Assembly: GCF_024372725.1 (NCBI RefSeq)
Contig: NZ_VOUA01000033.1
Span: forward strand, 1 to 45,151
Source: Methanosarcina sp. KYL-1
GTDB taxonomy: Archaea > Halobacteriota > Methanosarcinia > Methanosarcinales > Methanosarcinaceae
DNA: 45,151 bases
Direction of reading: 5' to 3'
Below are positions 9,692 to 31,220 of this stretch, one piece after another. The translations under genes and the position numbers were made by a program. Every line of letters begins with the position of its first letter. The stretch's first letter is position 1. The notes beneath the pieces are model-generated. The model had not been told where the DNA came from, ran no database searches, and saw nothing but the letters and a program-made list of their open reading frames with translations.

Positions 9692-9696
9692 GTGTG

Positions 9697-10734
9697 ATGA
9701 TAGAAATCCCTGAATTCATAGTTCCGTTCCTTCCCTGGATCCGCGGGATTGTAGGCCTGTCCCTTATAGGAGCCATCTTCCTGGGCGCAATGGGTGCGGT
9801 CTGGATTGAACGTAAACTCTCAGCCGACATCCAGTTCAGGTACGGCCCCATGAGGGTAGGAAAATTCGGGCTCCTGCAGCTGGTAGCCGATGCGATCAAG
9901 CTCTTTACGAAAGAAGACCTTAGGCCAAAGAACGCTGACCGTCTCCTTTTCGACAACGCCCCGATCTTCATGATGGGCTCGGTTTTCCTTATGCTTGTTG
10001 CAATCCCCGTAGGTGCTGTTTTTATTAACGGGGTCGAGTACCCGTTAGCGGCAACCGAAATGGACATCAGTGTCCTTTATATCGAGGCAGTGTCTGCAAT
10101 TTCCATCTTCGGGATTTTCATGATTGCCTACGGTTCGAACAACAAGTATTCTCTCCTTGGTGCATTCAGGAACTTTGCCCGGATGGTCGGGTATGAAGTG
10201 CCCCTCGGAATCACTGTTGTAAGTGTGGCTGTAATGACCGGGTCCCTTAACATCGTGGAAATCGCACAGGCCCAGGGGCTTGTCTGGAACATTTTCTTGC
10301 AGCCGCTCGGATTTATTGTCTTCTTTATTGCCCTTATGGCTGATATGGGAAGGCTTCCTTTCGACCAGAACGAGTCCGAAGAAGAACTGGTCGCAGGGTG
10401 GATTACCGAATACACAGGAATGCGTTTCGGGCTCGGGTTCTTTGCCGAGTACATCCACATGATCCTCGGTTCTTTCCTTGTGGCTCTTCTCTTCCTTGGC
10501 GGCTGGAACGTGCCGGCATTTGTAGCAAACAACCCGATACTTGGCCTTATTGCCCCCACAGGTTTCCTGCTTGTGAAAACCGTTCTTGTCCTGTGTACTA
10601 TTATCATGATGAGATGGGCTGTCCCCAGGTTCAGAATCGACCAGGTAGTGGACCTCAGCTGGAAAAAGCTCCTGCCTCTGTCCCTCCTGAACCTTGCCTG
10701 GGCAGTGGGCCTCGGGCTCTATCTGGGAGTGTGA
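9697..10734 (+). CDS. fpoH: FpoH, F420H2 dehydrogenase membrane subunit (NuoH-like)
   Basis: A 345-residue membrane subunit with about eight helices that joins the peripheral arm to the proton pumps. It has the NuoH signatures ERKLSADIQFRYGPMRVG and LPFDQNESEEELVAG followed by TEYTGMRFGLGFFAEY, the acidic loop near the quinone site. I chose ATG 9697 because GGTG lies 6 nt upstream; a GTG at 9688 would add three residues and overlap the fpoD stop. Confidence 0.95.
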   Translation: MIEIPEFIVPFLPWIRGIVGLSLIGAIFLGAMGAVWIERKLSADIQFRYGPMRVGKFGLLQLVADAIKLFTKEDLRPKNADRLLFDNAPIFMMGSVFLMLVAIPVGAVFINGVEYPLAATEMDISVLYIEAVSAISIFGIFMIAYGSNNKYSLLGAFRNFARMVGYEVPLGITVVSVAVMTGSLNIVEIAQAQGLVWNIFLQPLGFIVFFIALMADMGRLPFDQNESEEELVAGWITEYTGMRFGLGFFAEYIHMILGSFLVALLFLGGWNVPAFVANNPILGLIAPTGFLLVKTVLVLCTIIMMRWAVPRFRIDQVVDLSWKKLLPLSLLNLAWAVGLGLYLGV

Positions 10735-16948: not shown

Positions 16949-17320
16949 ATGACAGATTGTGATCTTTGCGGACGCGCAATCCCGACCGTAAACCCGGTCA
17001 GGGTCCTGCGCCCTCTCCTCAAGTTCGCCTACCCCGAAGGAGTCTGGAAAGGCCTCTGCGAGACCTGCCTTGAATCCGCCGAGGAAACCCGCGTAAAAGT
17101 GGCAAAAGAGACCTCTGCAGGCAAAAAAGGCAAATGCGCCCTCTGCGGAGATAAAACCGACCTTTACGCCGTGGAAATGCATATCCCTGACTTCTCAAAA
17201 GAAGTCGTAAAAAAGAATGCAATGCTCTGTGAGAAATGCTTAAAGGCAGCCGGTGAGACTTACGTGAAGTTCAAGAGGGAACAGCACGGGGAACACGGGC
17301 ACGGGCACGGGCATCATTAA
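16949..17320 (+). CDS. fpoO: FpoO, F420H2 dehydrogenase accessory metal-binding subunit
   Basis: The last fpo gene; its 123-residue product is a small soluble protein special to the Methanosarcina-type complex and has no counterpart in bacterial complex I. Four CxxC pairs are visible (CDLC, CETC, CALC, CEKC), enough for two rubredoxin- or zinc-ribbon-like sites, and a histidine-rich tail GHGHGHH. FpoO has been described as a likely iron-sulfur protein; its role is not settled. It is the intact parent of three partial copies further downstream (18326-18691, 19944-20174, 28890-29189). Confidence 0.95.
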   Translation: MTDCDLCGRAIPTVNPVRVLRPLLKFAYPEGVWKGLCETCLESAEETRVKVAKETSAGKKGKCALCGDKTDLYAVEMHIPDFSKEVVKKNAMLCEKCLKAAGETYVKFKREQHGEHGHGHGHH

Positions 17321-17330
17321 GTGAGGTTGA

Positions 17331-17363
17331 AGCTGCTGTTATGGCGGCTTTTTTCTTCCTTTT
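17331..17363 (+). terminator. Terminator of the fpo operon
   Basis: AGCTGCT (17331-17337) pairs with GGCGGCT (17343-17349), allowing G-U pairs, followed by a T-rich run. Closely related hairpins follow each of the three degraded fpoO copies, which shows the copied segment included the terminator. Confidence 0.7.
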
Positions 17364-17385
17364 TTTTGATTATTGAAATCTCATT

Positions 17386-17811
17386 TTATTCTGCAAGTTT
17401 CTCTGCGTATTCTGCAGCGTAAAAGGCAAATGTATCAAAATCTTCCAGGTTTTCAGCTAGCAGTTTTCTTAATACGTCAGGGTCCAATTCTTCATATATA
17501 TGGACCAGAACATTTCTGAACCCTGCTGCAAAAGCGAATTCCTCTGCAAATTCTTTAGGGATTATTTTGTGCCTGCCAAGAATCCGAAAAACACTCCTAT
17601 AGTCTTCAGGCCTTTCAAACCCCTCTTTTGAGATGATGATTTCTCCGATGTCAATGGCACATTCAATTGCAAGCTGGAAATTTCTCTCGACTGCGGAACG
17701 TTTTTCATAATTGCTTTCGAGGTCCGTGCTGTCGGAATCTATTGATTTCAGGTAGTCCATACAGCGCTGCATGAAGTTTAACTTTCTAAAGATCTTATCT
17801 GCTGCTGACAT
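17386..17811 (-). CDS. hepT: HepT-family HEPN toxin
   Basis: A 141-residue all-helical protein of the HepT/DUF86 family, the RNase-like toxin of type VII HEPN-MNT systems. The signature R-x4-H-x-Y is present as RNVLVHIY near residue 98. The preceding gene is mntA, whose end it overlaps by 17 nt, the usual order and coupling for this pair. It is convergent with fpoO and its 3' end lies 66 bp from the fpoO stop. Pieces of a second hepT lie at 28703-28888 and 29351-29465. Confidence 0.9.
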   Translation of the reverse strand: MSAADKIFRKLNFMQRCMDYLKSIDSDSTDLESNYEKRSAVERNFQLAIECAIDIGEIIISKEGFERPEDYRSVFRILGRHKIIPKEFAEEFAFAAGFRNVLVHIYEELDPDVLRKLLAENLEDFDTFAFYAAEYAEKLAE

Positions 17812-18295
17812 TCGGAATACCTCTCTTCTCCCTTATTCGTTTCAGCAATTCCTTATTTAAAAAGTCTTCATGGTACTTTCTGTCCAGGTATCTGGACATT
17901 ACACGATGCTCCACGTCCAGTTTAAGGTCTTCGTTTCTGACTAATAACGGCACATTGGGCTTTATTACCTCAAAATTAATAACCGGTGAAGCATCATTCA
18001 TCACTACAAGGTCTACATGATCGGTTTTGAGGAAGGTTGCAAGCTCTCCCATTAATTCCAGGCGCTTTTCGATCCTCTCTCCTTTTGTAAGTTTGCCGGA
18101 AAGATACACAGCTATATCAATATCGCTTAACGGCCCTTCCGTGCCTTCGGCTGTCGAGCCGAAGAGATATGCAAGTTCAACATATTCCCGTGCCTTGAAA
18201 AATTCAGGGAGCACGGTACACAGAATCTCTTTCCCTCTCTTATGTGGTGTAGAGCCCATTGCATTCTTCTTTATGTCCTGTTCTTTCAAATACAT
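17795..18295 (-). CDS. mntA: MntA-family minimal nucleotidyltransferase antitoxin
   Basis: A 166-residue protein with the nucleotidyltransferase signature GS-x10-D-x-D, seen as FGSTAEGTEGPLSDIDIAV near residue 46, and a third acidic position in HVDLVVMN. In characterised pairs MntA neutralises HepT by adding AMP to the tyrosine of the R-x4-H-x-Y motif, which this HepT retains. ATG 18295 is chosen; a later ATG at residue 13 is possible. Its upstream region runs directly into the divergent fpoO copy, so promoter and copy share about 30 bp. Confidence 0.9.
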   Translation of the reverse strand: MYLKEQDIKKNAMGSTPHKRGKEILCTVLPEFFKAREYVELAYLFGSTAEGTEGPLSDIDIAVYLSGKLTKGERIEKRLELMGELATFLKTDHVDLVVMNDASPVINFEVIKPNVPLLVRNEDLKLDVEHRVMSRYLDRKYHEDFLNKELLKRIREKRGIPNVSSR

Positions 18296-18325
18296 TATGT
18301 TGCAGGTGTTGCAGGTAGGGTCATT

Positions 18326-18691
18326 GTGACATATTGTGATCTTTGCGGACGTGCAATCCCGACCGTAAACCCGGTCAGGGTCCTGCGCCCTCTCCTCAAG
18401 TTCGCCTACCCCGAAGGCGTCTGGGCAGGCCTCTGCGAGAACTGTCTCGAATCCGCCGACAAAACCCGCGTAAAAGTGGAAAAAGAGATCTTTACAGGCA
18501 CTTCCGACAAATGCGACCTCTGCGGCTCAAAAACCGACCTTTACGCTGCAGAAATGCACATCCCCGACTTCTCAAAAGAAATCGTAAAAAAGGATGCCAT
18601 GCTCTGAAAAAAATGCCTGGATGCAGCCGGTGAAACCTACGTGAAGTTCAAGAGGGAACAGCACGGGGAACACGGGCACTCGAAGCATTAA
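18326..18691 (+). pseudogene. fpoO: fpoO copy 2, full length with an in-frame TGA
   Basis: This copy begins GTG where fpoO has ATG and matches fpoO over its whole length, ending GHSKH-stop. A TGA at 18605-18607 replaces the TGT codon of the first cysteine of the fourth CxxC pair; beyond it the frame continues correctly as KKCLDAAGETYVKFKREQ to the normal stop. No other break is seen and the first three CxxC pairs are intact. Upstream there is no fpo-like AAGGAGGT site, so translation is doubtful. It is followed by a copy of the fpoO terminator. Confidence 0.85.
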
Positions 18692-18702
18692 AGTTGAGTT
18701 GG

Positions 18703-18738
18703 AGCTGCTTTTAAAGCGGCTTTTTTCTTATTTTTTTT
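18703..18738 (+). terminator. Terminator copy behind fpoO copy 2
   Basis: AGCTGCTT (18703-18710) pairs with AAGCGGCT (18714-18721), followed by a long T-rich run. It is homologous to the fpo terminator at 17331 and slightly longer in stem. Confidence 0.65.
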
Positions 18739-18799
18739 GGCGGGTGCTGGTAGCTTTATATCCCTCGCCAGTTTCTTTTTGACATAATTCCAAAGTTTC

Positions 18800-19840
18800 T
18801 TAAAACCATTTGTCAAGCTTTTGTTGGTTTTTTGCCTCAATTAAACGTGAATAATAGAAGTTGTCGACTTTTATCTTTTCTTTCGTTCTAACATTGCCTT
18901 GAAGGTCTAGATAAGTAATAACTTCCTCCGGTGTCATTTTATCTTTTGGAAAAAACGATATCTGGTATGTCCTATAGTAATTACTTTTGTAGTAATTTCC
19001 TATCATCTGTCCTTTTTGACTCTTTTTGCGATCCAAAAGTTTACGCAATGTTGGTTTGAAAAGTTCACAAACTTCTTTTTTTCTTGAATTATTTGACGAG
19101 TTATGGATAGTTGAAAAAGTTGCTCCAAGAATCAAGTCGATCAATTGAATAAATTGGGATTCATCTGACTTGCTTTCTCTATGGTCTGAGTCGATAAATT
19201 TTATTTCGTCACAGTTTATGCTCAACTTATCTATTGCGAATTCGGTTTGTTGAATTGGGTGCCAAGGGAAAAAATCATGGTATTCTTGACTTCCTCTGTC
19301 ATGAAATATAGAATTCACGACAATATTGGAGTAATCTTTAAAAAAATAGTTTAAACCGCTCATTAAAACAGTTCTATAAAATCGGTTATAGATGTTAAGT
19401 TCTATTTTTCCGCCACTACCAAATTCTCTGTAATCTATGTTTGAAAGATTTATTCCCAGAATATTAAAGTATAACATTTTTCGGTGCTTTTGACAAGCTT
19501 CCCTGTTGATAAAATTGATCCAATTTTTTGCTATCATGTATCTAGCACTTGATCTGTGAATTTCTTTGAAATGAATCTCAGTATCATTATCTTCATGAAA
19601 CTTACATCTATCAGGACAGCATGAATCTGAGACATTCCAATGGTGATTTTTTATGCACCGCAGATCTTTCAAGTTTGTCAAAACATCCTCTTTGCAATCT
19701 TTAGGGACAAAGAGAGCTCCGAGGTACATCCATTTTGTATTATCAAAAGGGTCTACGCTACTGAAAATTTCATCAGAATAAATCTCAAGTTCGATATTTC
19801 CGTTTAAGTACGTGGAAAATTTGCCTCCGTCACTTATCAA
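18800..19840 (-). CDS. DUF3800-like protein, putative nuclease
   Basis: A 346-residue soluble protein. Near the N-terminus EIYSDEIFSS resembles the D-E-S/G motif of DUF3800 proteins, and near residue 228 ESQFIQLIDLILGA matches their closing E-x-x-x-x-Q-x-x-D-L-I block. DUF3800 has been predicted to have an RNase H-like fold and often occurs in defence regions. A CCPDRC...H cluster near residue 75 may bind metal. The start is TTG 19840 because no ATG precedes the first motif. A TATA-like ATATAC (around 19870-19880) lies roughly 30 nt upstream, so the message may be leaderless. Composition is clearly more AT-rich than fpo, suggesting transfer. Confidence 0.6.
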   Translation of the reverse strand: MISDGGKFSTYLNGNIELEIYSDEIFSSVDPFDNTKWMYLGALFVPKDCKEDVLTNLKDLRCIKNHHWNVSDSCCPDRCKFHEDNDTEIHFKEIHRSSARYMIAKNWINFINREACQKHRKMLYFNILGINLSNIDYREFGSGGKIELNIYNRFYRTVLMSGLNYFFKDYSNIVVNSIFHDRGSQEYHDFFPWHPIQQTEFAIDKLSINCDEIKFIDSDHRESKSDESQFIQLIDLILGATFSTIHNSSNNSRKKEVCELFKPTLRKLLDRKKSQKGQMIGNYYKSNYYRTYQISFFPKDKMTPEEVITYLDLQGNVRTKEKIKVDNFYYSRLIEAKNQQKLDKWF

Positions 19841-19943
19841 GTTTAATTTTTTTGCTTTGTATTTCTTACAGTATATTGAGCAGTTATTAATCTTTCTTTA
19901 TGTTGTGAGGTTTGGACATATTTGAGGTCTGTTCCAAATTTAT

Positions 19944-20174
19944 GTGACGATCTATGTAAAAGTGGAAAAAGAAGAACTTGCAGGCACCCCCGGCAAATGC
20001 ACCCTCTGCGGCACAAAAACCGACCTCTACGCCGTGGAAATGCACATCCCCAACTTCTCAAAAGGTGTCATGACTGAAAACGCAATGCTCTGCGAGAAGT
20101 GTTTAAAGGCAGCCGGTGAAAGCTACGTCAAGTTTAAAAGAGAACAGGCGGAGCACGGGCACGGGCATCATTAA
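19944..20174 (+). pseudogene. fpoO: fpoO copy 3, C-terminal part only
   Basis: Homology starts at 19956 (codon for V in TRVKVEKE of the full protein) and runs to the stop, keeping CTLC, CEKC and HGHGHH. The frame is open from a GTG at 19944, whose first codons are unrelated sequence, and no ribosome site is evident. The N-terminal half with two CxxC pairs is missing, so a working FpoO is unlikely. It is about 91% identical (20 differences in 219 positions, hand count) to the same part of copy 4 at 28971-29189, with no length difference. Confidence 0.8.
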
Positions 20175-20184
20175 GTGGATTTGA

Positions 20185-20215
20185 AGCTGCTGTTAAGGCG
20201 GCTTTTTTCTTTTTT
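20185..20215 (+). terminator. Terminator copy behind fpoO copy 3
   Basis: AGCTGCT (20185-20191) pairs with GGCGGCT ending at 20203, then a run rich in T. It is homologous to the fpo terminator. Confidence 0.6.
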
Positions 20216-20754
20216 TTGTTTTTTGATGGGTGCTTTTATCCTGAAGGTTCCTATTGGTTCGCTTTTAATTTCATTTTCTCGACTGCTTTGATTTATTATC
20301 AACATCAAAAGCATTTTCATCTTTTTATATTTCTATATTTTATACTCTTTCTCTAAAAAACGAAACATTTATCTATTCTTATTCTATACAACAGTATAAA
20401 ATATTTTATTTATTATATACACATTTTATATATGTACACTGTTGGTATGTTCCGGAAAAGAGGAAGACATAGAGGGGGATTAGAAAGGAAATTTTGACTA
20501 CATGGGATGCCTCCGTTTGGTGGGGTATATAGAGATGAATGATTTTTTTCATGATGAAACCAGCCAAGAAGTTTCATCGAGTCATGGGTTTGATGGCAGC
20601 AGTTAAAAAATGTGAGGATGAAGATTTGAAGGTCTGAGTGATTAGAGATTGAAATTGTTTGTCTAATTTTTCATAAAATAATCTGGAAGGGCTTCTGATA
20701 AAGTACTGAGTTATGTTCTGTATTTTTGATCTTTGAAAATAGGGGTGATATTTG
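20216..20754. other. Intergenic region before the RHS gene with a trace of hepT
   Basis: The first 80 bp resemble the DNA after fpoO copy 4 (GTGCTTTT, GAAGGT, CTATTGGTT, TTCTCGACTGC). The last motif corresponds to the AVEK codons of hepT on the minus strand. From 20340 to 20450 the DNA is very AT-rich with TATA-like TTTATATATG near 20425. A 28-codon frame at 20551-20637 has no ribosome site and no known match. GGGGTGAT precedes the RHS start. Confidence 0.5.
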
Positions 20755-23700
20755 ATGAAAACAAATCGGAAAATAATTTGTTTACCTTTACTTGTTGTTT
20801 TTCTGACGATGATTACAGGGACGGCAATAGCTGATGACGTTAACGTGGAATTAGTTAGTCACCTTGACGGAGAGGTTTACGATGTGGAGGTAGTTGGGGA
20901 TTATGCATATATTGGAACGGGGCAGGAACTTGTTATATTTGACATCAGTGACGCATTCAATCCATCAGAAGTGGGGAGGGTGCTTACACCATCGATAGTA
21001 TTTGGTGTTGCTGTGGCAGGCAGCTATGCCTATGTAGTCTCTAGTGGTCTTGTTATTGTGGATGTCACAAACCCAGCAGCACCAACCCTTGCAGGCAGTT
21101 ATGATACTGTTGATACTGTTGGTCATGGTGTTGCTGTGGCAGGCAGCTATGCCTATGTAACCTCTAGTAGCAATGGTCTTGTTATTGTGGATGTCACCAC
21201 CCCATCCGCACCAACCCTTGCAGGCAGTTATTATACTCGTTGTCCACTTTGTGTCGCTGTTGCAGGCAATTATGCCTACGTAGCCGATTGGGACAATGGT
21301 CTTGTTATTGTGGATGTCACCACCCCATCCGCACCAACCCTTACAGGTAGTTATGATACTGCTGGTTATGCAGAGGGTGTTGCTGTGGCAGGCAATTATG
21401 CCTACATAGCCTCTGGTAGCAATGGTCTTGTTATTGTGGATGTCACCACCCCATCCGCACCAACCCTTGCAGGCAGTTATGATACTGCTGGTTATGCACG
21501 TGGTGTTGCGGTGGCAGGAAATTATGCATACGTAGCCGATTCTTACAATGGTCTTGTCATTGTGGATGTCACAGATCCAGCAGCACCAACTATCGCAGGC
21601 AGTTATGATACTGCTGGTTATGCAGAGGGTGTTGCTGTGGCAGGCAATTATGCCTATGTAGCCGATAATACCAATGGTCTTGTGATTTTGCGAACTGATA
21701 TCCAAGATCAGGGACCAACTGATGAATCTTTAGTCCAGGTAGAAGGCAGTCCCGAAGTCTACTGGTTCCAGAATAACAAACTTTACTGGGTGACCGATTG
21801 GGAAATAATCAACCAGATGGCAGGTGTGTCGGGCTGGGACAGCGTGAACACCCTGCCAGCCGGTGACTTTGATCCTGCGGATTATTCACAGGGTCCACGT
21901 TTTATCAGTACGGAATCGATTTCTGATGGGCTGCTTATCAGGGAACTGGGTGATTACAAAGTTTATTTGATTGAAAACGGGAAGAAACGCCATATTACAT
22001 CTCCTGAAGCTCTTGAATGGAACGGATACAGTTTTGATGATGTCATAGATGTATCTCCATCAATTATCGGAATGTTCTCATCAGGGAGTGAAATCAGCAA
22101 CGATAAAACCCTGCTTCAAAGAGAAGGACTTCCCGATATCTACTGGCTTCAGAACAACAAACTATACTGGGTCACAGACTGGGACGTGATCAATAAGATG
22201 TCAGATGTCCCCGGTTGGGATCACGTGAACACTCTACCATCAAGCATGTTCAACCCGGAGGATTATGAGCAAGGACCCAGGTTTATTAGTACAGGAATAG
22301 AGTCGGATGGTTTGTTAATCCAAGAACAGGGATACCCTGAGGTATATCTTATTCTTGGTGGTGAAAAGCATCACTTTACTTCTCCTGAGGCATTCTTGGA
22401 GAGTGGATACAGCTTTGATGATGTGATAAGTGTATCAACAGAAATACTTGCAACATTTAAATCTGGAAGTGATGTAAGCAAATCTTCTTCTGTTCATAAT
22501 ATCGATAAAGGCACTGACTACACTTCAATACAAGCTGCTATTAATGATGCAAGTTCAGGTGATGAAATACATGTGGATAGTGGCACATATGTTGAATATG
22601 TTAGAATAGATAAGAGCTTAATATTAAAAGGTGATAGCGCGGATACAGTAAAAGTAGTGTCACCTTCAGGCTATTCTGTTTTTGGTGTTGCAACTAATGA
22701 TGGACGAGTCACAATTAGTGGATTCACAGTAACAGGAGCAGATTTTGATGGTACTGGCCCTGCTGCAGGAATTAAATGTTCTTCTTCAGATTGCATAATA
22801 TCAGACAATATCCTTTATAACAATAATTGTGGAATTCAATGCCTTGTAGAGTGGGGTTCTCAAGGAACATTAACCATAATTAATAACACATTTGATTCAA
22901 ATAGACTTGGCACATATATACATAAATCAAATGTGTTATTAATTGGTAATAAAGCCGTATCAAACGAATGGGGTCTACATGTAGGTGGTAAAGACAATGT
23001 TATAAAAGACAACATTGCAAACTCTAATAGCATTGGTTTATTTATCGGACAAAATTCAATGAATAATACTTTAATAAATAATACTGCAAATTCAAATGCT
23101 GATTATGGCTTCCAAATTCAAAGCTCCTCCTATATTGAACTTATTAACAATACCGCAGATTCCAACGGAGGATGTGGGATCTACTTACAATTTTTTGCGA
23201 ATGGTACATACCACAATCTTCTGTATCATAATAATCTAATTAACAATGGTTATAATCTAATTACCAATAATTATACTAACGCTATAGATGCAAATATTTT
23301 TGATTCCACCGGTTATACATGGAACACGTGGGATAATGATTACCCATCAGGTGGCAATTACTGGAGCGATTACACTGGTTCTGATAATTTCAAAGGTCCA
23401 AATCAAGATCAACCTGGCAGTGATGGCATCGGTGATACCCCCTACCCGATCCCGGGCGGCAGCAGTGTGGATAGATATCCGCTGATGGCACCATATTCTT
23501 CAACCCCGCCTTCATCATCTATGCAAGATAAATCTCTTCTCCAGGTGCAAGGCAGTCCAGATGTCTACTGGTTCCAGAACAACAAACTTTACTGGGTGAC
23601 CGATTGGGATATAATCAACCAGATGTCAGGTGTGCCGGGCTGGGACAGTGTGAACACCCTGCCAGCCAGTGACTTTGACCCAGCGGATTATTCACAGGGT

Positions 23701-26700
23701 CCACGTTTCATCAGTACGGAATCGATTTCTGATGGGCTGCTTATCAGGGAAGTGGGAGATTACAAAGTTTATTTGATTGAAAATGGGAAGAAACGTCACT
23801 TTACATCTCCTGAAGCTCTCGAATGGAATGGATTCAGTTTTGATGATGTCATAGACGTTTCTTCGTCGATAATAAACATGTTTCCAGAGGGAAACGAGAT
23901 AAATATTAATGAACCAATTTTTGAGATCATTAAACCAGGTGCCTTTTTAGAAGGAACTTTTGATCAATACAATTACGGTTCGTACCCCATGATTATGGAA
24001 GTTACAGATGTAGATGGACTGGAATTTAGTGGAATACTTTACTGGCCAGATCTTGGGGATAGTAAAACTAAGTTTACAGGTACAATTGATCCAAACTTAA
24101 ATCAAGCTTGGTTTACGGAATACGAACAAATACAGGGGTCATCTTCCATAGTTCTTAATGGGGATTATTATGCGGAACTAAAAGGTGATACTCTCAGCGG
24201 GTACTGGAACTGGCCAAATGGTGGAGAAGGGGGTACTTTTTGGATATCTCCTTCTTCTGGTAACATAGATGAAGATAACGAAGCTATAAGTGCTACTTAT
24301 GGCGGTCCTTCAGAATCAAACAGTCTTCATTCCGATGATCCGATAAACATGGGAACTGGTAGTTACTTCTACAATCACCAAGACATCTACATCCCCGGGC
24401 AGGGTCTACCTTTGGCAATTACACGTTCATATAATTCCATGGATGATTATAACGGGCCACTAGGTCATGGCTGGACATTCAATTACAATATGAATTTGAT
24501 CGTTTCAGCTACTGGTGATGTAACGGTCATGAGAGAAAGTGGCAGAAGGGACAGGTATACACTGAATACAGACGGGACCTATTCCGCACCACTGGGTGTC
24601 TTTGATACTTTAACCAAAAACCCGGATGGAACCTATATTTTAACAGGAAAGGACAGGACACGGTATAACTTTGGCCCAGATGGAAAACTTACCAGTATAA
24701 TAGACAAAAACGATAACCAAGTAAGTTTAACGTATACTGGAGACTATCTGACAGAAGTTACCGATGCTTCTGGCCGGGAGCTGATTCTGGCCTATGATAC
24801 AGAGGGTCACATCATTTCGATCACCGATCCGATAGGCAGGGTATGGAGCTATTCATATGATAGCCAGGGTAATCTGATCGAATGTCTGAATCCCATGGGC
24901 GGTCAATTCAGTTACACATATGATGAAAATAACTGGATGACATCAATAACCGATCCTCTTGGAAATCAGATCATGGCAAATACCTATGATGATGAAGGAC
25001 GCGTGATCAGTCAGAGCAATGCCCTTGGATCGGTCTATACTTTCGATTATGATACAGAGAACCAAAGGACTACTGAAACTGATCCCTTTGGCAATACTAA
25101 GGTCTATGCATACGATGAACACTTCTGGGGACTGAGTGAAACCGACCAGCTCGGGAACACAGTAACTTATGCCTATGACGAAGATGGTAATAGGATCAGT
25201 GTGACCAATGAGAATGGCCAGACCAGCACATTTGCATATGATGAAAATGGTGATGTTATCGGCATCACTGATCCGCTGGGTTATACTACATCCATGGCAT
25301 ATGATTCAGAAGACAATCTGATAAGTCTTACAGATGCACTGGGTCGGCAGATGTCCCTGGAGTATAATAGCAATAATGACCTTAGCAAAATAATCAATGC
25401 TCTGGGTTATGAGTTTGTTTTTACTTATGATCTGCACGGACAGCTTATAAGCAGCACGGATGCCAACGGTAACACTGCAACCTTTGCCTATAACGCCAAC
25501 GGAGACAAAATTAGTGTTGTTGATGCCCTGGGTAACACTGCATCTCTAACTTATGACATGATAGGCCGGGTTACCAGCATAACCGATGCCAATGGCAACA
25601 CATACACATTACAATACGATGTCCTTGACAGGGTCATAAGCGTTACCGACCCACTTGGAAATACTGCAACCAGTACATATGATGCGGCTGGAAATATGAT
25701 TTGTCTTACCGATGCTTCAGGAAGCGCAACAACGTATTCCTATGACCCCTTATACAATTTGCTTGAGGTAACGAACGCCGTAGGTGATTCTGTTAGCTTT
25801 ACATATGATGCCGTTGGCAACATGATCGCAGTTACAGATGCAAAGGATCAGACCACAAACATCAACTACGATCCCCTGAATCGCCCCGTTTCTGTTACCG
25901 ACCCATTGGGTTATATTTCAACAGTTGAATATGATGCCGTTGGTAACGGTATCAGCTTTACGGATGCTGCCGGAAGCGTGACAACATACTCTTATGACCT
26001 GCTTAATAGGTTGATCGAGGTTACGGATGCAATGGGTGGATCAGTGATCTATGAGTATGATGTTGTGGGCAATATGGTTTCTATGACAGATGCAAACGGG
26101 CATACCACGAGTTACGCCTATGATTCATTGGATCGTCCTGTCTCTGCAACCGATCCGTTGGGATACACTACGAGTAACACCTATGATGCCGTTGGCAACA
26201 TGGTCAGCCTCACCGATGCAAATGGTGAGACAACAACTTACAGTTACGATGCTGTTGATCGTCTGGTGCAGATCTCCTATCCGGATGGTCAAAATGTGAT
26301 ATATGGCCATGATGGCCTGGGTAACCGCCTCACCATGCAGGATAGCCATGGAGTAACGAACTATGAGTATGACAGCCTGAACCGCTTGCTCAGTGTCCTC
26401 GATTCCGACTCAGAACAGGTGAGCTACACCTATGACGAATCCGGTAACCGTGCTGAAATTACATATCCTGATGGAAAGGTTGCCTCTTACATATATGACG
26501 ATATAAACAGGCTCATTGGCGTGACTGGTCGGGATGGTTTGATCACAGGCTATGCATATGATACAAACGGTAACCTGATAAATATGACCTATCCAAACGG
26601 TATGTCCACAGACTATGTTTATGATGCAAATGACAGACTCGTCAGGCTTATCAATAAAAATGAAACCCAGGTAGTCTCGAGTTTTGAGTACACTCTGGAT

Positions 26701-28185
26701 CCCGTAGGCAATCGTTTGAGCGTTGATGAGCTGTTTTCAGGAAGGTTCGAGGCAGAGGATCCGGTTTGTGACGAAGCACAGGTTCTCACTACTACCTATG
26801 AGTATGATGGTCTCTACCGCCTGACCGAGGTCAACTATCCTTTCGATAAGACTGTGCAGTATAACTATGATCCTATGGGTAATCGTATCAGTATGATAAC
26901 AACAGTCGATGGAATAGACACTACTGTGGATTACTCATATGATGTTGCTGACCGCCTGTTGAGTTCCGGTAGCATTGCATATACATATGACAACAACGGA
27001 AATCTGATCGAGAAGATGGAAAATCCGGGACAGGTTACACTCTACACCTATGATGCAGCAAACCACTTAACAGGCATATCTGCAGTCATAAATAGCAAGA
27101 AATCCCCTAAAGACCTGTACAATTTCGAGTATGATGGTGACGGAAATCGTATCATCAAGACCGAAATTCATGGAAATAACCTGCGTTCAACAGAGTATGT
27201 ATGGGATGTCAACAGTTTCCTGCCACAAGTGCTTGCTGAATCTGATAAGAAGGATTCAACCTATTACACTTATGGGCTGGACCTCATTTCCATGACAGAT
27301 CCTCAAAGAGGGGAATTCTACTATCAATATGATGGACTTGGAAGTGTACGTAGCCTGAGTGATAGCCAACAAAGTGTTAAAACTATTTACTTCTATGATG
27401 CTTTCGGACAAATACAGAAGGAAATGGGTCATGTTGATAATGAATTCCTGTTCACCGGAGAACAAATGGATGACGAGACTGGATTGATGTATCTCAGAGC
27501 AAGGTATTATGATCCCGAGATTGGTAGATTTATCAACAAGGATCCGTTTGAAGGTTTTATGTCAAACACTCAGAGTCTGAACAGGTATTCTTATGTTCAG
27601 AATAATCCGGTTAACTATGTTGATCCTACAGGCTTATGTTCAGAGGATGGTAACACGGTAAAAAGTGTAGATGAAATTTTCTGGACAAAAAGATATGTAG
27701 ATCCGGCGATGTCTTTTTTTACAGATCCTTTTGTTATTAATAGAGTCACATATTTAGGAGCAGCAACGAGGAACCAGGGTACAAGTCTCAATAGTATATG
27801 GCCATACATTGAATCAAGAAAATCTCTTAAAGGAACTACGAATACGGCTGAAAATATCATGATGGGAGTAACTGTGGCTACAGAATTATCTGAAAGTTTC
27901 CACAGCCATGGTCTCACTCTTTCAGATATACCAACATCTAAAGAAGAAATTGTTGATATTTGGGAACATTCGAGTGATATAGATAAGTTAGATGCTGCAT
28001 ATACTACTGTATCAATTATACGGGATACAGCTGTGAATTCTGGTTTCGAGTTTACTCACGTAAATGATGTGACTAGATTTGTGGATCCGGAGTGGGAATA
28101 CTCAATAGACACAATGACAGTTCGTTATGAAGAGGCGCAAATGGTATATCGTTATTTTAGAGATGACTATGAATGGCCGTGGTAA
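20755..28185 (+). CDS. Giant secreted RHS/YD-repeat protein with variable C-terminal domain
   Basis: A 2476-residue protein. Approximate layout: signal peptide 1-27; LVIVD-type beta-propeller repeats (GVAVAGNYAYVADxxNGLV) 38-316; a module with WFQNNKLYWVTDW and VYLIENGKKRH at 323-447, a divergent copy at 448-580 and a third at 923-1045; a NosD-like parallel beta-helix 582-910; an unrecognised beta-rich stretch 1056-1190; the RHS entry segment (INMGTGSYFY, RSYNSMD) 1193-1262; a long series of YD repeats 1300-2165; the RHS core (LFTGEQMDDETGLMYLRARY, then YDPEIGRFINKDP) 2185-2295; and a 180-residue C-terminal domain I do not recognise. This is the layout of polymorphic toxins and cell-surface adhesins. 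TTG 20752 is an alternative start. It is bracketed by fpoO copies 3 and 4. No clear immunity gene follows. Confidence 0.9.
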   Translation: MKTNRKIICLPLLVVFLTMITGTAIADDVNVELVSHLDGEVYDVEVVGDYAYIGTGQELVIFDISDAFNPSEVGRVLTPSIVFGVAVAGSYAYVVSSGLVIVDVTNPAAPTLAGSYDTVDTVGHGVAVAGSYAYVTSSSNGLVIVDVTTPSAPTLAGSYYTRCPLCVAVAGNYAYVADWDNGLVIVDVTTPSAPTLTGSYDTAGYAEGVAVAGNYAYIASGSNGLVIVDVTTPSAPTLAGSYDTAGYARGVAVAGNYAYVADSYNGLVIVDVTDPAAPTIAGSYDTAGYAEGVAVAGNYAYVADNTNGLVILRTDIQDQGPTDESLVQVEGSPEVYWFQNNKLYWVTDWEIINQMAGVSGWDSVNTLPAGDFDPADYSQGPRFISTESISDGLLIRELGDYKVYLIENGKKRHITSPEALEWNGYSFDDVIDVSPSIIGMFSSGSEISNDKTLLQREGLPDIYWLQNNKLYWVTDWDVINKMSDVPGWDHVNTLPSSMFNPEDYEQGPRFISTGIESDGLLIQEQGYPEVYLILGGEKHHFTSPEAFLESGYSFDDVISVSTEILATFKSGSDVSKSSSVHNIDKGTDYTSIQAAINDASSGDEIHVDSGTYVEYVRIDKSLILKGDSADTVKVVSPSGYSVFGVATNDGRVTISGFTVTGADFDGTGPAAGIKCSSSDCIISDNILYNNNCGIQCLVEWGSQGTLTIINNTFDSNRLGTYIHKSNVLLIGNKAVSNEWGLHVGGKDNVIKDNIANSNSIGLFIGQNSMNNTLINNTANSNADYGFQIQSSSYIELINNTADSNGGCGIYLQFFANGTYHNLLYHNNLINNGYNLITNNYTNAIDANIFDSTGYTWNTWDNDYPSGGNYWSDYTGSDNFKGPNQDQPGSDGIGDTPYPIPGGSSVDRYPLMAPYSSTPPSSSMQDKSLLQVQGSPDVYWFQNNKLYWVTDWDIINQMSGVPGWDSVNTLPASDFDPADYSQGPRFISTESISDGLLIREVGDYKVYLIENGKKRHFTSPEALEWNGFSFDDVIDVSSSIINMFPEGNEININEPIFEIIKPGAFLEGTFDQYNYGSYPMIMEVTDVDGLEFSGILYWPDLGDSKTKFTGTIDPNLNQAWFTEYEQIQGSSSIVLNGDYYAELKGDTLSGYWNWPNGGEGGTFWISPSSGNIDEDNEAISATYGGPSESNSLHSDDPINMGTGSYFYNHQDIYIPGQGLPLAITRSYNSMDDYNGPLGHGWTFNYNMNLIVSATGDVTVMRESGRRDRYTLNTDGTYSAPLGVFDTLTKNPDGTYILTGKDRTRYNFGPDGKLTSIIDKNDNQVSLTYTGDYLTEVTDASGRELILAYDTEGHIISITDPIGRVWSYSYDSQGNLIECLNPMGGQFSYTYDENNWMTSITDPLGNQIMANTYDDEGRVISQSNALGSVYTFDYDTENQRTTETDPFGNTKVYAYDEHFWGLSETDQLGNTVTYAYDEDGNRISVTNENGQTSTFAYDENGDVIGITDPLGYTTSMAYDSEDNLISLTDALGRQMSLEYNSNNDLSKIINALGYEFVFTYDLHGQLISSTDANGNTATFAYNANGDKISVVDALGNTASLTYDMIGRVTSITDANGNTYTLQYDVLDRVISVTDPLGNTATSTYDAAGNMICLTDASGSATTYSYDPLYNLLEVTNAVGDSVSFTYDAVGNMIAVTDAKDQTTNINYDPLNRPVSVTDPLGYISTVEYDAVGNGISFTDAAGSVTTYSYDLLNRLIEVTDAMGGSVIYEYDVVGNMVSMTDANGHTTSYAYDSLDRPVSATDPLGYTTSNTYDAVGNMVSLTDANGETTTYSYDAVDRLVQISYPDGQNVIYGHDGLGNRLTMQDSHGVTNYEYDSLNRLLSVLDSDSEQVSYTYDESGNRAEITYPDGKVASYIYDDINRLIGVTGRDGLITGYAYDTNGNLINMTYPNGMSTDYVYDANDRLVRLINKNETQVVSSFEYTLDPVGNRLSVDELFSGRFEAEDPVCDEAQVLTTTYEYDGLYRLTEVNYPFDKTVQYNYDPMGNRISMITTVDGIDTTVDYSYDVADRLLSSGSIAYTYDNNGNLIEKMENPGQVTLYTYDAANHLTGISAVINSKKSPKDLYNFEYDGDGNRIIKTEIHGNNLRSTEYVWDVNSFLPQVLAESDKKDSTYYTYGLDLISMTDPQRGEFYYQYDGLGSVRSLSDSQQSVKTIYFYDAFGQIQKEMGHVDNEFLFTGEQMDDETGLMYLRARYYDPEIGRFINKDPFEGFMSNTQSLNRYSYVQNNPVNYVDPTGLCSEDGNTVKSVDEIFWTKRYVDPAMSFFTDPFVINRVTYLGAATRNQGTSLNSIWPYIESRKSLKGTTNTAENIMMGVTVATELSESFHSHGLTLSDIPTSKEEIVDIWEHSSDIDKLDAAYTTVSIIRDTAVNSGFEFTHVNDVTRFVDPEWEYSIDTMTVRYEEAQMVYRYFRDDYEWPW
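21722..23880. repeat. Long internal repeat of the RHS gene (two near-identical 360-bp units)
   Basis: The DNA at 21722-22085 and 23521-23880 encodes the same 120-residue module with very few changes, while the middle copy (about 22098-22490) has diverged. The outer pair therefore looks recently duplicated or homogenised across the NosD-like domain. Confidence 0.75.
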
Positions 28186-28260
28186 TATTGTTCAAAAATA
28201 TGGATTTAAATTGAGTATTTGTAGAACTGAAATAATCTCTGATGAAAAGTGTGGGGTTCC

Positions 28261-28490
28261 TTACCTCAAACTTTTCTCTATTTTTAACCTTTTCTCAATA
28301 TCCTTGTCAAAGATAAACTGGGATATCCGGTATTTCTCATTGAACTTGTCGATGTTCTCGAAAGCCTTCTCTACAACCTTCTCATCAGTCAATTCCTTTA
28401 GGAACTCACCGCTCTGGCTGATCTGACCTACTTTCGGCAGGTGGCTTGCATATTCTGAATCATTTTTCCCGATGCCGTTTTTCGCCTTGT
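28261..28490 (-). pseudogene. C-terminal remnant of an unidentified gene
   Basis: On the minus strand, after an in-frame TGA near 28495, about 75 codons read as a well-formed charged helical peptide (SEYASHLPKVGQISQSGEF, later FNEKYRISQFIFDKDIEKRL) ending in TAA at 28263-28261. No start codon is seen, so this is probably the 3' piece of a lost gene. I do not recognise the family. It lies convergent with the RHS gene, 75 bp past its stop. Confidence 0.4.
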
Positions 28491-28702
28491 TTCAGAAATT
28501 ACATCCAATATATGTAGATTCCATACACATGCTCTTACTTATATATGGACCGAGATTTCAAGTATATGTAAACGTTATCAAATGATTTCAGTTAGAGATT
28601 GTTAATTCAAAAACGGCATCAAAAGAAATGTCTAAATTATTATGTCGACCGGCCGAATATAAGATTTTTGAAGAATTGGAAGATAAATTGTAAAAGTAAT
28701 TT

Positions 28703-28888
28703 TCATTCAGTTTCTTTCTTCTCAACATACTCCAGCACATACCCCGCAAATTCCTCAAAATCCCCAAGTTTCTCGGTCAGGAATTCTTCCAGAACCCCGG
28801 GGTCCACTTCGTCATACATGTGGACGAGTATATTCCTGAACCCTGCGGCAGGTGCGAATTTTTCTGCAAAATCCTTCGGGGAGATCCC
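28703..28888 (-). pseudogene. hepT: hepT copy 2, C-terminal piece
   Basis: About 61 codons from ISPKDFAEKFAPAAGFRNILV to the TGA at 28705-28703 match the C-terminal part of the intact HepT (IIPKEFAEEFAFAAGFRNVLV), including the R-x4-H-x-Y motif as RNILVHMY. Upstream of this point the hepT sequence is replaced by fpoO copy 4. The N-terminal piece lies beyond that copy at 29351-29465. Confidence 0.8.
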
Positions 28889-28889
28889 T

Positions 28890-29189
28890 CCCCTCCTCAA
28901 ATTCGTCTATCCCGAAGGAGTCTGGACAGGCCTCTGCGAGACCTGCCTCGAATCCGCCGACAAAACCCGCGTAAAAGTGGAAAAAGAAGAACTTGAAGGC
29001 ACCCCCGGCAAATGCGACCTCTGCGGCTCAAAAACCGACCTCTACCCCGTAGAGCTCCGCATCCCCAACTTCTCAAAAGGCGTTGTGACTGAAAACGCCA
29101 TGCTCTGTGAGAAGTGTTTGAAGGCAGCCGGTGAAACCTACGTCAAGTTCAAAAGAGAACAGGCGGAACACGGGCACGGGCATCATTAG
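28890..29189 (+). pseudogene. fpoO: fpoO copy 4, lacking the first 21 codons
   Basis: Homology begins at PLLKFVYPEGVW (residue 22 of FpoO) and runs to the end, with CETC, CDLC, CEKC and HGHGHH kept and a TAG stop. A continuous frame reaches back through antisense hepT to 28599, but that portion is not protein-like. The fpoO start region and first CxxC are missing. The junction with hepT lies in a CCCTC-rich stretch near 28886-28896, so short shared sequence may have guided the join. Confidence 0.82.
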
Positions 29190-29203
29190 GTGTATTTGAA
29201 GCT

Positions 29204-29265
29204 GCTGCTTTTTAAAGCGGCTTTTTCTTTTTTTCTTTGGCATGAAAGTACCGGAGTACTTTCAT
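29204..29265 (+). terminator. Terminator copy behind fpoO copy 4 plus a second hairpin
   Basis: GCTGCTTT (29204-29211) pairs with AAAGCGGC (29214-29221), then a T-rich run, as after the other fpoO copies. A second perfect hairpin, ATGAAAGTAC-CGGA-GTACTTTCAT (29242-29265), followed by TTTTTT, lies in roughly 60 bp that the matching region after copy 3 lacks. A similar hairpin occurs at 44670-44694. Confidence 0.6.
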
Positions 29266-29350
29266 TTTTTGTGCCTGTAATTCAAAAATTTCATGTACGT
29301 TTTTTTGGCAGGTGCTTTTTGAAGGTGCCTGTTGGTTAATTTATATCTCT

Positions 29351-29465
29351 TTTTCTCGACTGCACTTCTTCTTTCGTAGTCGTATTCCAGATTTAAGGTT
29401 TCGGGGTTCAGGGACTTGAGGTAATGCATACACCTTTTCATGGGACTTAATTTTCTGAGAATCAT
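29351..29465 (-). pseudogene. hepT: hepT copy 2, N-terminal piece
   Basis: From ATG 29465 the frame reads MILRKLSPMKRCMHYLKSLN and on through NLEYDYERRSAVEK, matching the first 43 or so residues of the intact HepT (FRKLNFMQRCMDYLKSIDS). Homology ends near 29351. About 40 codons of the hepT middle are missing and fpoO copy 4 stands in their place. The gene cannot make a working toxin. Confidence 0.78.
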
Positions 29466-29481
29466 TTCTTAACTTTTCATT

Positions 29482-29649
29482 TCAGGAATACCACTCTTTA
29501 AACTGTTTCACAAATTCATTTTCAAAATTTTCTATGCGGTATTCTTTCAAATATATTTGTGTACTCGTTTCAGGAAAGTTGATTTGAAGTGCCAGTGACC
29601 TCTTATGTTTGCATTTAACTTTTGAAAAGATAGTAAAATATAGAATAGT
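29482..29649 (-). pseudogene. Possible remnant of a partner gene upstream of hepT copy 2
   Basis: On the minus strand about 55 codons without a start read through QINFPETSTQIYLKEYRIEN and FENEFVKQFKEWYS to a TGA 17 nt before the hepT start. The position matches where mntA would end in an mntA-hepT pair. The peptide is not clearly similar to the intact MntA, so it may be a different antitoxin, a decayed one, or chance. Confidence 0.25.
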
Positions 29650-29834
29650 TTTTATGTACTAATTTCATACCCTAACTGTATATATTACTTTATTTATTTC
29701 ACGCATTTGCTGTCATAAAAAATTTATTTTATTACTTTTGGCCTGAAAAATTAGGGGTATTTTTATGATCCTGCTCCGGTTGGGCTTTACAGGCCAAATA
29801 CTTGTGGAGTCAGTCGATAATGTGGAGCGAAATA

Positions 29835-31220
29835 ATGAAAATCAGACATCTTGGAAGTTGCTTTTGTTTACTTATATTGTTTTTTTTTACATCTGTTTCT
29901 CCTGTTGAAGCAGCTGCCGATTCCTCTCGCAGCATAATTTTGGAACCGGACGTAACATACGTACATCCCGGAGACGTGTTTACAGTAACCGTAAGCATAG
30001 ACCCGCAGTCAATGGAAGTTTACGGGGTCCAGTACAACGTATCATTTGACCCGGATGCCTTTGAAATATTGTCGCAGTCCCAGGGGCCCTTCCTCTCTCA
30101 GGACGGCCGGCCTGCGTTTGTAGTCCGGGAAACATATCCCGAAAAAGGCGAAGTCCTCTATGTAGAATCAAGGTACGGGATAAAGACGGGGGTCTCTGCA
30201 CCCGGTATAGTTTCAACAATTGAATTTAGGGTAAAGGACCCGATTTCATCTTATGGAGTAAAAGAATTCATCCTTAATAATGTTATAATTGTAGATTCAA
30301 ATCTTCAAATTACCGGTTTTGATCCCAGTAGCGGGACAGTTGTTTTGATTGGGCCGGTAGTTTCCGGTTTCACTCCCAGTGTCAGTGAAGGCGAAGCTCC
30401 GTTAACAGTTAAGTTCACCGACACTTCCATGAATGCCGTTTCCTGGTCATGGGACTTTAATGGCGACGGCCTCGTGGATTCCAGGGCACAGAATCCGGAA
30501 TTCACGTACACCGAACCCGGGGAGTATGTCGTTTCCCTTACCGCAGCAAACAAACTCGGTACCGGGGATACTTCAACACAATCCATCCTCGTTACAGGTC
30601 CGCAGGTTTATGGGCCTCCTGTTATCAATTCGGTTGATCTCTTCCCTGCCAGGACAACGCCTGGCGCTGCAATAAATGTAAGTGTGGACGTCGTGGGCGA
30701 GGCTGAAGTAATTGAAGTAGCGGTCGGCGACGTTTTGCTTGTCAAAAAAACAGATGGGATCTGGCAGGGAAGCATAATTGCTCCTTCTTCTCCTGGTGAT
30801 TATTCCCTTTCAATTGCAGCAAGTGACGCCGCTGGCAGCACTGCGGAAACTTCAGTGCCCTACCATGTGGTCCTGTGTAAAGGTGGAGTTGACATTTCCA
30901 TATCTCCAGGAGTCAGTTTTGCCAGTTCGGGAAATACTGTTTCCTTAACTTTAAAGGTAAAAAACACCCAGAACATCGATGACATTTTTAATGTCCGGAT
31001 AAATACTGACAGGTTGCGAGAATCTCTTTGTGCGGACCTTTCCGGCTTTAGCTGGACTGAAAATGAGGTTAAGCTCAGGGCAGGGGAAGAAAAGATATTC
31101 CCACTTGAGGTGAGGGTGCCTGTAGGGGCTTCTCGGGGTTTAAAGTTCTTCAGGGCGAATGTGGACTCGGAGATGTCTGCTGTTTATGGGTTTGATAAGG
31201 GGCTTTTGATAGTATCGTGA
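29835..31220 (+). CDS. Secreted cohesin-like/PKD-domain surface protein
   Basis: A 461-residue exported protein. A signal peptide (about 1-28, with CLLILFFFTS) is followed by a cohesin-like beta domain (about 32-165: VHPGDVFTVTVSIDP, GVQYNVSFDP, GIVSTIEFRVKD), a PKD domain (about 168-255: APLTVKFTDTSMNAVSWSWDFNGDG), then two Ig-like beta domains. There is no C-terminal membrane anchor. Such proteins are typical of the Methanosarcina cell surface; binding partner unknown. ATG 29835 follows GGAG at normal spacing; ATG 29820 and TTG 29802 are alternatives. A TATA-like CTGTATATATTAC lies near 29677. Confidence 0.82.
   Translation: MKIRHLGSCFCLLILFFFTSVSPVEAAADSSRSIILEPDVTYVHPGDVFTVTVSIDPQSMEVYGVQYNVSFDPDAFEILSQSQGPFLSQDGRPAFVVRETYPEKGEVLYVESRYGIKTGVSAPGIVSTIEFRVKDPISSYGVKEFILNNVIIVDSNLQITGFDPSSGTVVLIGPVVSGFTPSVSEGEAPLTVKFTDTSMNAVSWSWDFNGDGLVDSRAQNPEFTYTEPGEYVVSLTAANKLGTGDTSTQSILVTGPQVYGPPVINSVDLFPARTTPGAAINVSVDVVGEAEVIEVAVGDVLLVKKTDGIWQGSIIAPSSPGDYSLSIAASDAAGSTAETSVPYHVVLCKGGVDISISPGVSFASSGNTVSLTLKVKNTQNIDDIFNVRINTDRLRESLCADLSGFSWTENEVKLRAGEEKIFPLEVRVPVGASRGLKFFRANVDSEMSAVYGFDKGLLIVS

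Follow-up and report, generated by a model that had tools for sequence, protein, structure and literature searches.

Repeated partial copies of the respiratory gene fpoO in a variable region of Methanosarcina genomes

In tRNA-gene islands with attL and attR, the 3' end of the gene is repeated downstream of the cargo and in the same orientation. Repeated gene ends also mark displaced cargo at rhs and cdi genes, where they take the form of displaced orphan tips. Here, we describe repeated gene ends in an archaeon, in the region 3' of fpoO of Methanosarcina sp. KYL-1. The stretch that we analyzed (the window, 45,151 nucleotides) is a complete contig, NZ_VOUA01000033.1, of a 4.04-Mb assembly in 66 contigs. 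Its array of fpoO copies shares 3'-end repeats with the tRNA-gene islands but differs from them in having no constant crossover, an integrase in only 1 of 30 regions, and a protein gene as the anchor. Likewise, the resemblance to rhs and cdi orphan tips lies in the repeated ends, whereas fpoO is a respiratory subunit gene and not a toxin gene with an exchanged tip.

Bacterial systems offer further comparisons. As outlined in PMC5635113, hotspots at which horizontal gene transfer is driven by homologous recombination show turnover of cargo beside core genes and few or no mobile-element proteins, with recombination at the flanking core genes as the proposed driver. In that outline, core genes flank a bacterial spot and cargo is swapped by double recombination; the fpoO region is archaeal and holds repeated copies of one core gene inside the spot, giving many homology arms. 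Homology-facilitated illegitimate recombination, as presented in outline in PMC3240628, can add DNA through one homologous and one illegitimate end, and such an event could yield a shortened version of the anchor gene. That work is experimental and concerns bacteria, whereas the fpoO case is read from scars, at junctions common to several species. Finally, the merodiploids sketched in PMC3784515 arise when partial repeats and incoming DNA produce duplications through alternative repeat pairing, although those duplications span ~100-900 kb in pneumococcus, compared with ~1-9 kb in the fpoO region. We found no report of fpoO-copy arrays in Methanosarcina in searches of an open-access library, whose papers were judged mostly by title.

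The fpoO copies are real, recur in the genus and in a sister genus, and are tied to shuffling of the region 3' of the gene. The reading that we favor, at a probability of about 0.6, is an old variable array of cargo units with fpoO ends, which is reshuffled by recombination between direct repeats and has seen some lateral exchange. The locus works like a homology-driven hotspot, with variable cargo and few mobile-element proteins, and not like an integrase island. The evidence begins with four copies of fpoO, all on one contig and one strand of the assembly, which were recovered by repeat search, by alignments, and by protein and DNA searches of the organism's own genome:

16949..17320, plus strand: fpoO copy 1, the intact native gene, with fpoN directly 5'; it fits the fpoN-based expectation relative to the sister genus
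17329..17366, plus strand: terminator hairpin and T-run of copy 1, conserved in the alignment of the copies
18326..18691, plus strand: fpoO copy 2, full length, with a GTG start and one in-frame TGA; its sequence is a patchwork of native-like and sister-genus-like parts
19870..20174, plus strand: fpoO copy 3, sister-genus-like, decayed from about codon 31 (start approximate) and clear from codon 49 (19956) to the stop
28890..29236, plus strand: fpoO copy 4 (codon 22 to the stop; 28890-29189) and its terminator, within an older hepT

A sequence-only reading had proposed three extra copies 3' of the intact gene in the same orientation, namely a full-length but nonsense-mutated copy (18326-18691), a copy of the C-terminal 73 codons (19956-20174), and a copy running from residue 22 to the end (28890-29189), each followed by an fpoO-type terminator hairpin. 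Our alignments agree, with one correction and one addition. Copy 3 is clear from codon 49 onward as proposed, but it is not cut there; a decayed extension continues leftward to about codon 31 and is common to the sister-genus genome G035. Copy 4, in turn, lies inside the remnant of an older hepT. Terminator-like hairpins with T-runs stand 3' of all four copies, at 17329, 18701, 20183, and 29204. DNA identity to native fpoO is 88% for copy 2, 79% for copy 3, and 81% for copy 4, while copies 3 and 4 reach 92% and 91%, respectively, against fpoO of G035 and G011 in the sister genus. Copies 1 and 2 are nearly identical across codons 7-33, and copy 2 begins ~30 nt past the start of mntA. Repeats of this length and identity (219-366 nt, 79-88%) are not due to chance. 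They are also unlikely to be an assembly artefact, because the copies differ from native fpoO by 12-21% and arrays of this kind are also present in one-contig assemblies (G060 and G063).

The array is not peculiar to this strain. Native fpoO was located in 26 genomes (23 from the window's genus, 3 from the sister genus, g11); G076, with a 30-codon match at a contig edge and no native gene, was excluded, and G007, G072, G073, G074, G079, G080, and G042 had no fpoO match. Extra copies were present in 13 of the 26 genomes (11/23 in the genus and 2/3 in the sister genus) and came to 22 in total, 21 from one listing plus a further one in G035. Fifteen lie on the native gene's contig within ~12 kb, and all 15 of these are downstream and on the same strand. 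The other seven are on other contigs or, in G062, ~495 kb away. The full 3' end of fpoO is retained in 15 of the 22, and the cargo beside the conserved gene varies among related genomes, as judged from the gene orders of 31 regions. Outside these genera, each of 38 genomes with a match had a single fpoO gene (two matches in G006 were neighboring pieces and counted as one), although short decayed copies could be missed there; the query was ~35-50% identical in most of these genomes.

Control genes did not behave in this way within the genus. No partial copies of fpoN were seen at a cut-off of E 1e-10, at which very short pieces could be missed; other matches were at most 31% identical, save for adjoining pieces of fpoN itself in G061 and G078. 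Likewise, there were no partial copies of fpoI among the matches listed (further ones reached at most 44%) and none of L7Ae, for which other matches were at most 37% identical except for a second full-length copy in G072. Two side observations concern genomes in this survey. On contig 2 of G062, the fpoO fragment and the native gene (positions 1532941 and 2027614) both have related DDE transposase genes nearby, and L7Ae is ~25 kb from the fragment; this arrangement looks like a rearrangement that split the fpoO region. In addition, G007, G073, and G074, which are members of the genus, have neither fpoO nor a close fpoN (best match ~25-26% identity), and G007 is 99% complete, which suggests that the Fpo complex was lost in these three.

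The copies do not share a single origin. In a DNA tree of 41 rows the extra copies were scattered, copies shorter than 200 nt having been excluded both there and from the approximately unbiased (AU) tests. A single clade was rejected for the 15 extra copies of at least 200 nt (AU p 6e-58) and for the window's four copies (AU p 0.003). Grouping with the host's own gene was rejected for copies 2 and 3 of G021 and copy 3 of G070 (AU p <0.001), and AU p for foreign copies was 0.0006-0.003. Extra copies of G060, G069, G070 (copy 2), G077, and G083, among others, were closest to their own host's gene. Across 24 genomes (G078 and G061 being excluded from the regression), fpoO divergence tracks fpoN divergence, the 3' part of the intact gene does so as well (mean residuals within 1 standard deviation), and the window's native fpoO fits the trend. 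Native divergence predicts ~80% identity to sister-genus fpoO, as against the 91-92% of copies 3 and 4, and the DUF3800 gene of the window is 93% identical to that of G035, compared with 87% for fpoN. Because the native gene fits the regression while copies 3 and 4 exceed the sister-genus expectation, the former looks native and the latter look as though they came from a g11-like source, to judge by sequence. The converse arrangement, in which the intact gene has a foreign 3' end and copies 3 and 4 represent the displaced native ends, is ruled out by the fit of the intact gene to the fpoN regression. As for a vehicle, no relative of fpoO was found among viral contigs (pattern-based scan) or among plasmid or phage records.

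The junctions of the copies are partly shared, and their flanks occur in different combinations. Clustering of 450-nt flanks gave four recurrent types on the left: fpoN (L1, 26 natives), mntA (L2, six copies, junction J2), the tail of a NosD gene (L3, five copies, junction J1), and DUF3800 (L4, two copies); all other left flanks were single. J2 is present in six genomes (the window, G011, G054, G063, G081, and G083) and J1 in five. Right flank types recur behind different left types, and of the at least five right-flank families of native fpoO, four also come after extra copies. For example, the DUF3800 flank lies to the right of native fpoO in G035 and G068 (as a remnant also in G011), and in the window it lies to the right of the mntA-side copy. 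The hepT flank is found behind native fpoO in the window (and in G075 over ~90-100 nt) and behind the NosD-side copies of G063 and G081. Six genomes have the NosD flank after native fpoO, and G021 and G070 have it after copies. For 9 of 22 extra copies, the right flank was collinear with that of native fpoO in another genome, versus 20 of 499 random positions (Fisher 4e-7). Synteny breakpoints fell in extra copies in 39 of 388 bins, compared with 15.4 +/- 5.0 expected and above all 2000 random placements, an excess that is inflated to an unknown degree, as repeats end alignments at their own edges.

Within the copies there are signs of mosaicism. At J1, decay affects the first ~20 codons of the copy, which resemble one another in four of the five genomes, while the remainder is host-like in G063, G081, and G060. 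In 11 maximum chi-square tests on nine fragments and one control gene, with permutation P values left uncorrected, breaks were detected in G060, G063, G081, G083, and window copy 2 (P 0.001-0.032; ~0.02 for the window copy) and in copy 3 of G021 (P 0.047). The control, native fpoO of G021, gave P 0.63.

The sequence between and beyond the window copies consists of accessory genes and remnants:

17386..17811, minus strand: hepT (unit type), PF01934, E 1.8e-30
17795..18295, minus strand: mntA (unit type), PF18765, E 2.2e-19 (PF18765/PF01909)
18296..18340, plus strand: junction J2, DNA upstream of mntA joined to the start of fpoO (codons 1-4)
18800..19840, minus strand: DUF3800-like gene, which adjoins the 3' end of native fpoO in G035 and G068
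20752..28185, plus strand: giant RHS/LVIVD/beta-helix gene, 2477 aa (PF05593 x23, PF08309 x7)
28431..28666, plus strand: segment that in G011 comes after the mntA-linked fpoO copy, 90% identical to G011
28703..28886 (approximate), minus strand: remains of the C-terminal part of the older hepT, with DNA 91% identical to the hepT tail of G025
29350..29527 (approximate), minus strand: remains of the N-terminal part of the older hepT, with the beginning of its mntA, 81% to G025 9680-9861
29802..31220, plus strand: cohesin/PKD gene, whose G025 counterpart lies ~2.4 kb past the hepT-mntA pair of G025

These assignments bear out the earlier placement of hepT-mntA and a giant RHS gene between the copies. 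The adjacent hepT and mntA domain genes fit a predicted HEPN/MNT toxin-antitoxin pair. The giant gene (20752-28185) is a single reading frame with 7 LVIVD and 2 beta-helix/NosD stretches in addition to its 23 RHS repeats. The DUF3800 label is less secure in the window, where the gene scores 19.6 bits and so falls just under the Pfam cut-off of 21, but the G035 orthologue passes at 23.0. Copy 4 interrupts a second, older hepT on the minus strand, of which ~114 bp are missing relative to G025 and G077. This hepT belongs to another lineage, with ~52% amino-acid identity to the unit hepT and a tail 90.5% like G025 DNA. By eye, the left joint of copy 4 in hepT has no useful homology; at the right joint, ~10 bases (TCTCGACTGC) are common to hepT and the sequence 3' of copy 3. 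Just 3' of the copy 4 terminator (29240-29267) is a 24-nt hairpin with perfect 10-nt arms (ATGAAAGTAC-CGGA-GTACTTTCAT). The same type follows copy 2 of G083, is dispersed in 15 of 30 genus genomes, and has 52 forward and 52 reverse matches in G007; it is probably a small dispersed repeat.

We scanned 52 different proteins with Pfam, picked from 164 open frames of at least 90 aa near the copies. The cargo among them included HepT, MntA, beta-helix/NosD surface proteins, LVIVD/PKD/RHS giants, a GDSL lipase, NlpC/P60, a VapB/PIN pair (G068), and an OLD-type ATPase with DUF488 (G047), along with many proteins without a family. The G047 cargo had PADLOC matches to Old/GajA models, and a neighbor matched PDC-M19B. 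By these predicted families, the cargo appears to be surface proteins together with toxin-antitoxin and defense genes, which is ordinary for a variable region. Transposase domains were found among the 52 proteins in G062 and G083; other mobile-element proteins were not searched systematically.

The sequence-only reading had compared the locus to an integration hotspot of the tRNA type. In its strict form, elements with a tyrosine integrase would use fpoO as their attachment gene, displace its 3' end as at tRNA genes, and later lose their integrases. The retention of the full 3' end in 15 of 22 copies is what such elements would leave, and one region has an enzyme to match. Our search for PF00589 covered 26 genomes, and the only one of 30 fetched regions around fpoO copies with a hit was contig 37 of G035, which encodes a 389-aa integrase and, further on, a weaker short match. 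The integrase is ~2 kb left of an fpoO fragment starting at about codon 52 (500-1669 and 3656-3888, respectively, in L065). This fragment and another ending at codon 62 overlap by ~26 bp in the manner of an attachment site core, and the right junction of the latter recurs in G011. Yet the two pieces are on separate contigs (37 and 1), close relatives of the integrase in G000, G054, G063, and G070 are away from any fpoO copy, and PF00589 is absent from the other 29 regions and, as had been noted, from the window contig. Furthermore, the 5' boundaries of the extra copies fall at about 11 places (codons ~1, 12, 19, 22, 27, 31, 34, 36, 52, 59, and 88), with no constant crossover point or target site. 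We consider this account quite improbable, and the G035 integrase offers a lead for a single lineage without explaining the pattern overall. The hotspot proposal is partly supported, in that cargo varies, copies recur in 13 of 26 genomes, they are not one duplication, some are foreign, and 9 of the 22 have right flanks that match native fpoO flanks of other genomes. The idea that each arrival restored or copied the 3' end of fpoO at its target is not supported, given the ~11 boundaries, a native-like intact gene, and main modules that diverge about as fpoN does.

A purely vertical history, in which copies arose once or a few times in an ancestor of the genus and were then lost differentially and kept host-like by gene conversion, with no arrival hotspot, would explain why J1 and J2 are shared between species and why the hepT-mntA units and most J1 flanks diverge about as fpoN. 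It does not predict the excess identity of copies 3 and 4 to sister-genus fpoO, that of the DUF3800 gene, or the foreign copies of G021 and G070, and we regard it as unlikely. The alternative that had been offered to a hotspot is that an fpoO-hepT-mntA unit underwent local tandem duplication and was then subject to decay and replacement. The near identity of copies 1 and 2 across codons 7-33 and the hepT remnants on either side of copy 4 are in its favor, but it is too simple for copies 3 and 4, which are sister-genus-like, for an older hepT of a different lineage, and for four window copies that do not form one clade. Tandem duplication alone was ruled out by the AU tests, and the fuller version strikes us as very improbable, although duplication and deletion between repeats are probably part of the history. 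Finally, the fragments could be chance filler, inserted through illegitimate joining and playing no part in cargo movement. Copy 4, with no clear homology on its left and ~10 bp on its right, has this appearance. Elsewhere chance filler is disfavored by the bias in strand (15/15) and by right flanks that match native fpoO flanks of other genomes; moreover, fpoO is the sole gene affected of the four tested. As a general account, we give it almost no credence.

Homologous recombination and conversion between direct fpoO repeats is the most economical mechanism for the old, reshuffled array that we favor. The region 3' of fpoO would be an old variable region and not the outcome of a one-off duplication. 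Its cargo units (a NosD-type surface gene, hepT-mntA, the DUF3800 gene, an LVIVD/RHS giant, and others) would in several cases end in their own fpoO copy, usually the 3' part. Direct repeats of up to ~370 bp, with the shared terminator, may act as points of homology, such that recombination among them, or with fpoO on incoming DNA of relatives, would delete, duplicate, insert, or swap the cargo between them. Gene conversion would hold parts of the repeats close to the host fpoO, and selection would keep the native gene while other copies decay. In the window, the segment from DUF3800 to copy 3 and copy 4 itself may derive from a sister-genus-like donor, and the joining of copy 4 into the old hepT, given its joints, points to occasional illegitimate joining. 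The data show the copies and their terminators, junctions held in common, flanks that differ, the foreign affinity of some copies, and a scarcity of integrases; that homologous recombination was at work, the sequence in which events took place, and any route by which fpoO ends first came to the units are inferred from them.

A number of our own results pull the other way. Between species, the J2 hepT-mntA unit and the sequence on the left side of J1 show about the same divergence as fpoN, with the G021 J1 flank diverged beyond that level. Because they diverge in step with fpoN, the modules of J1 and J2 are best taken to be old and inherited, and lateral movement is not needed for them; the host-like fpoO beside them would then reflect gene conversion. 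The same divergence weakens the case for these modules as recent, repeated arrivals, and we therefore do not claim recurrent capture as demonstrated. Signs of recombination are found in the extra copies, but incongruence between the intact fpoO genes and fpoN is not in excess. We could reconcile the gene orders of G011, G054, and G021 with no single ancestral order. A single ancestral order with deletions only, which fits many copies, fails for these three, and unequal exchange or insertion must therefore be added to deletion. In addition, the mosaic signal is limited. Three of the nine fragments were not significant (G011 copy 2, P 0.80; window copy 3, 0.16; window copy 4, 0.06), few sites are informative, and decay at the edges could mimic a mosaic. 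The largest right-flank family, R1, owes part of its cohesion to weak links (68-77% identity), the breakpoint excess carries the inflation described above, and the G035 integrase also belongs on this side. No recombination intermediate or strain pair was seen among the genomes examined.

A bolder reading makes the 3' end of fpoO the working repeat of a cassette platform in Methanosarcina that needs no integrase. Its units, each of cargo and an fpoO 3' copy, would be excised, stacked, and passed between species solely through homologous recombination, and toxin-antitoxin units would help to keep the array. Such a platform would resemble integrons in its moving cassettes, but integrons use attC and an integrase, whereas here homologous recombination would suffice. 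We offer this reading tentatively and hold it to be doubtful. More generally, the fpoO region provides a concrete, testable case in which archaea may assemble and trim a variable region with no dedicated recombinase, the homology arms being partial copies of a respiratory gene. The junctions shared among species allow old inheritance, gene conversion, and recent transfer to be distinguished within such a region.

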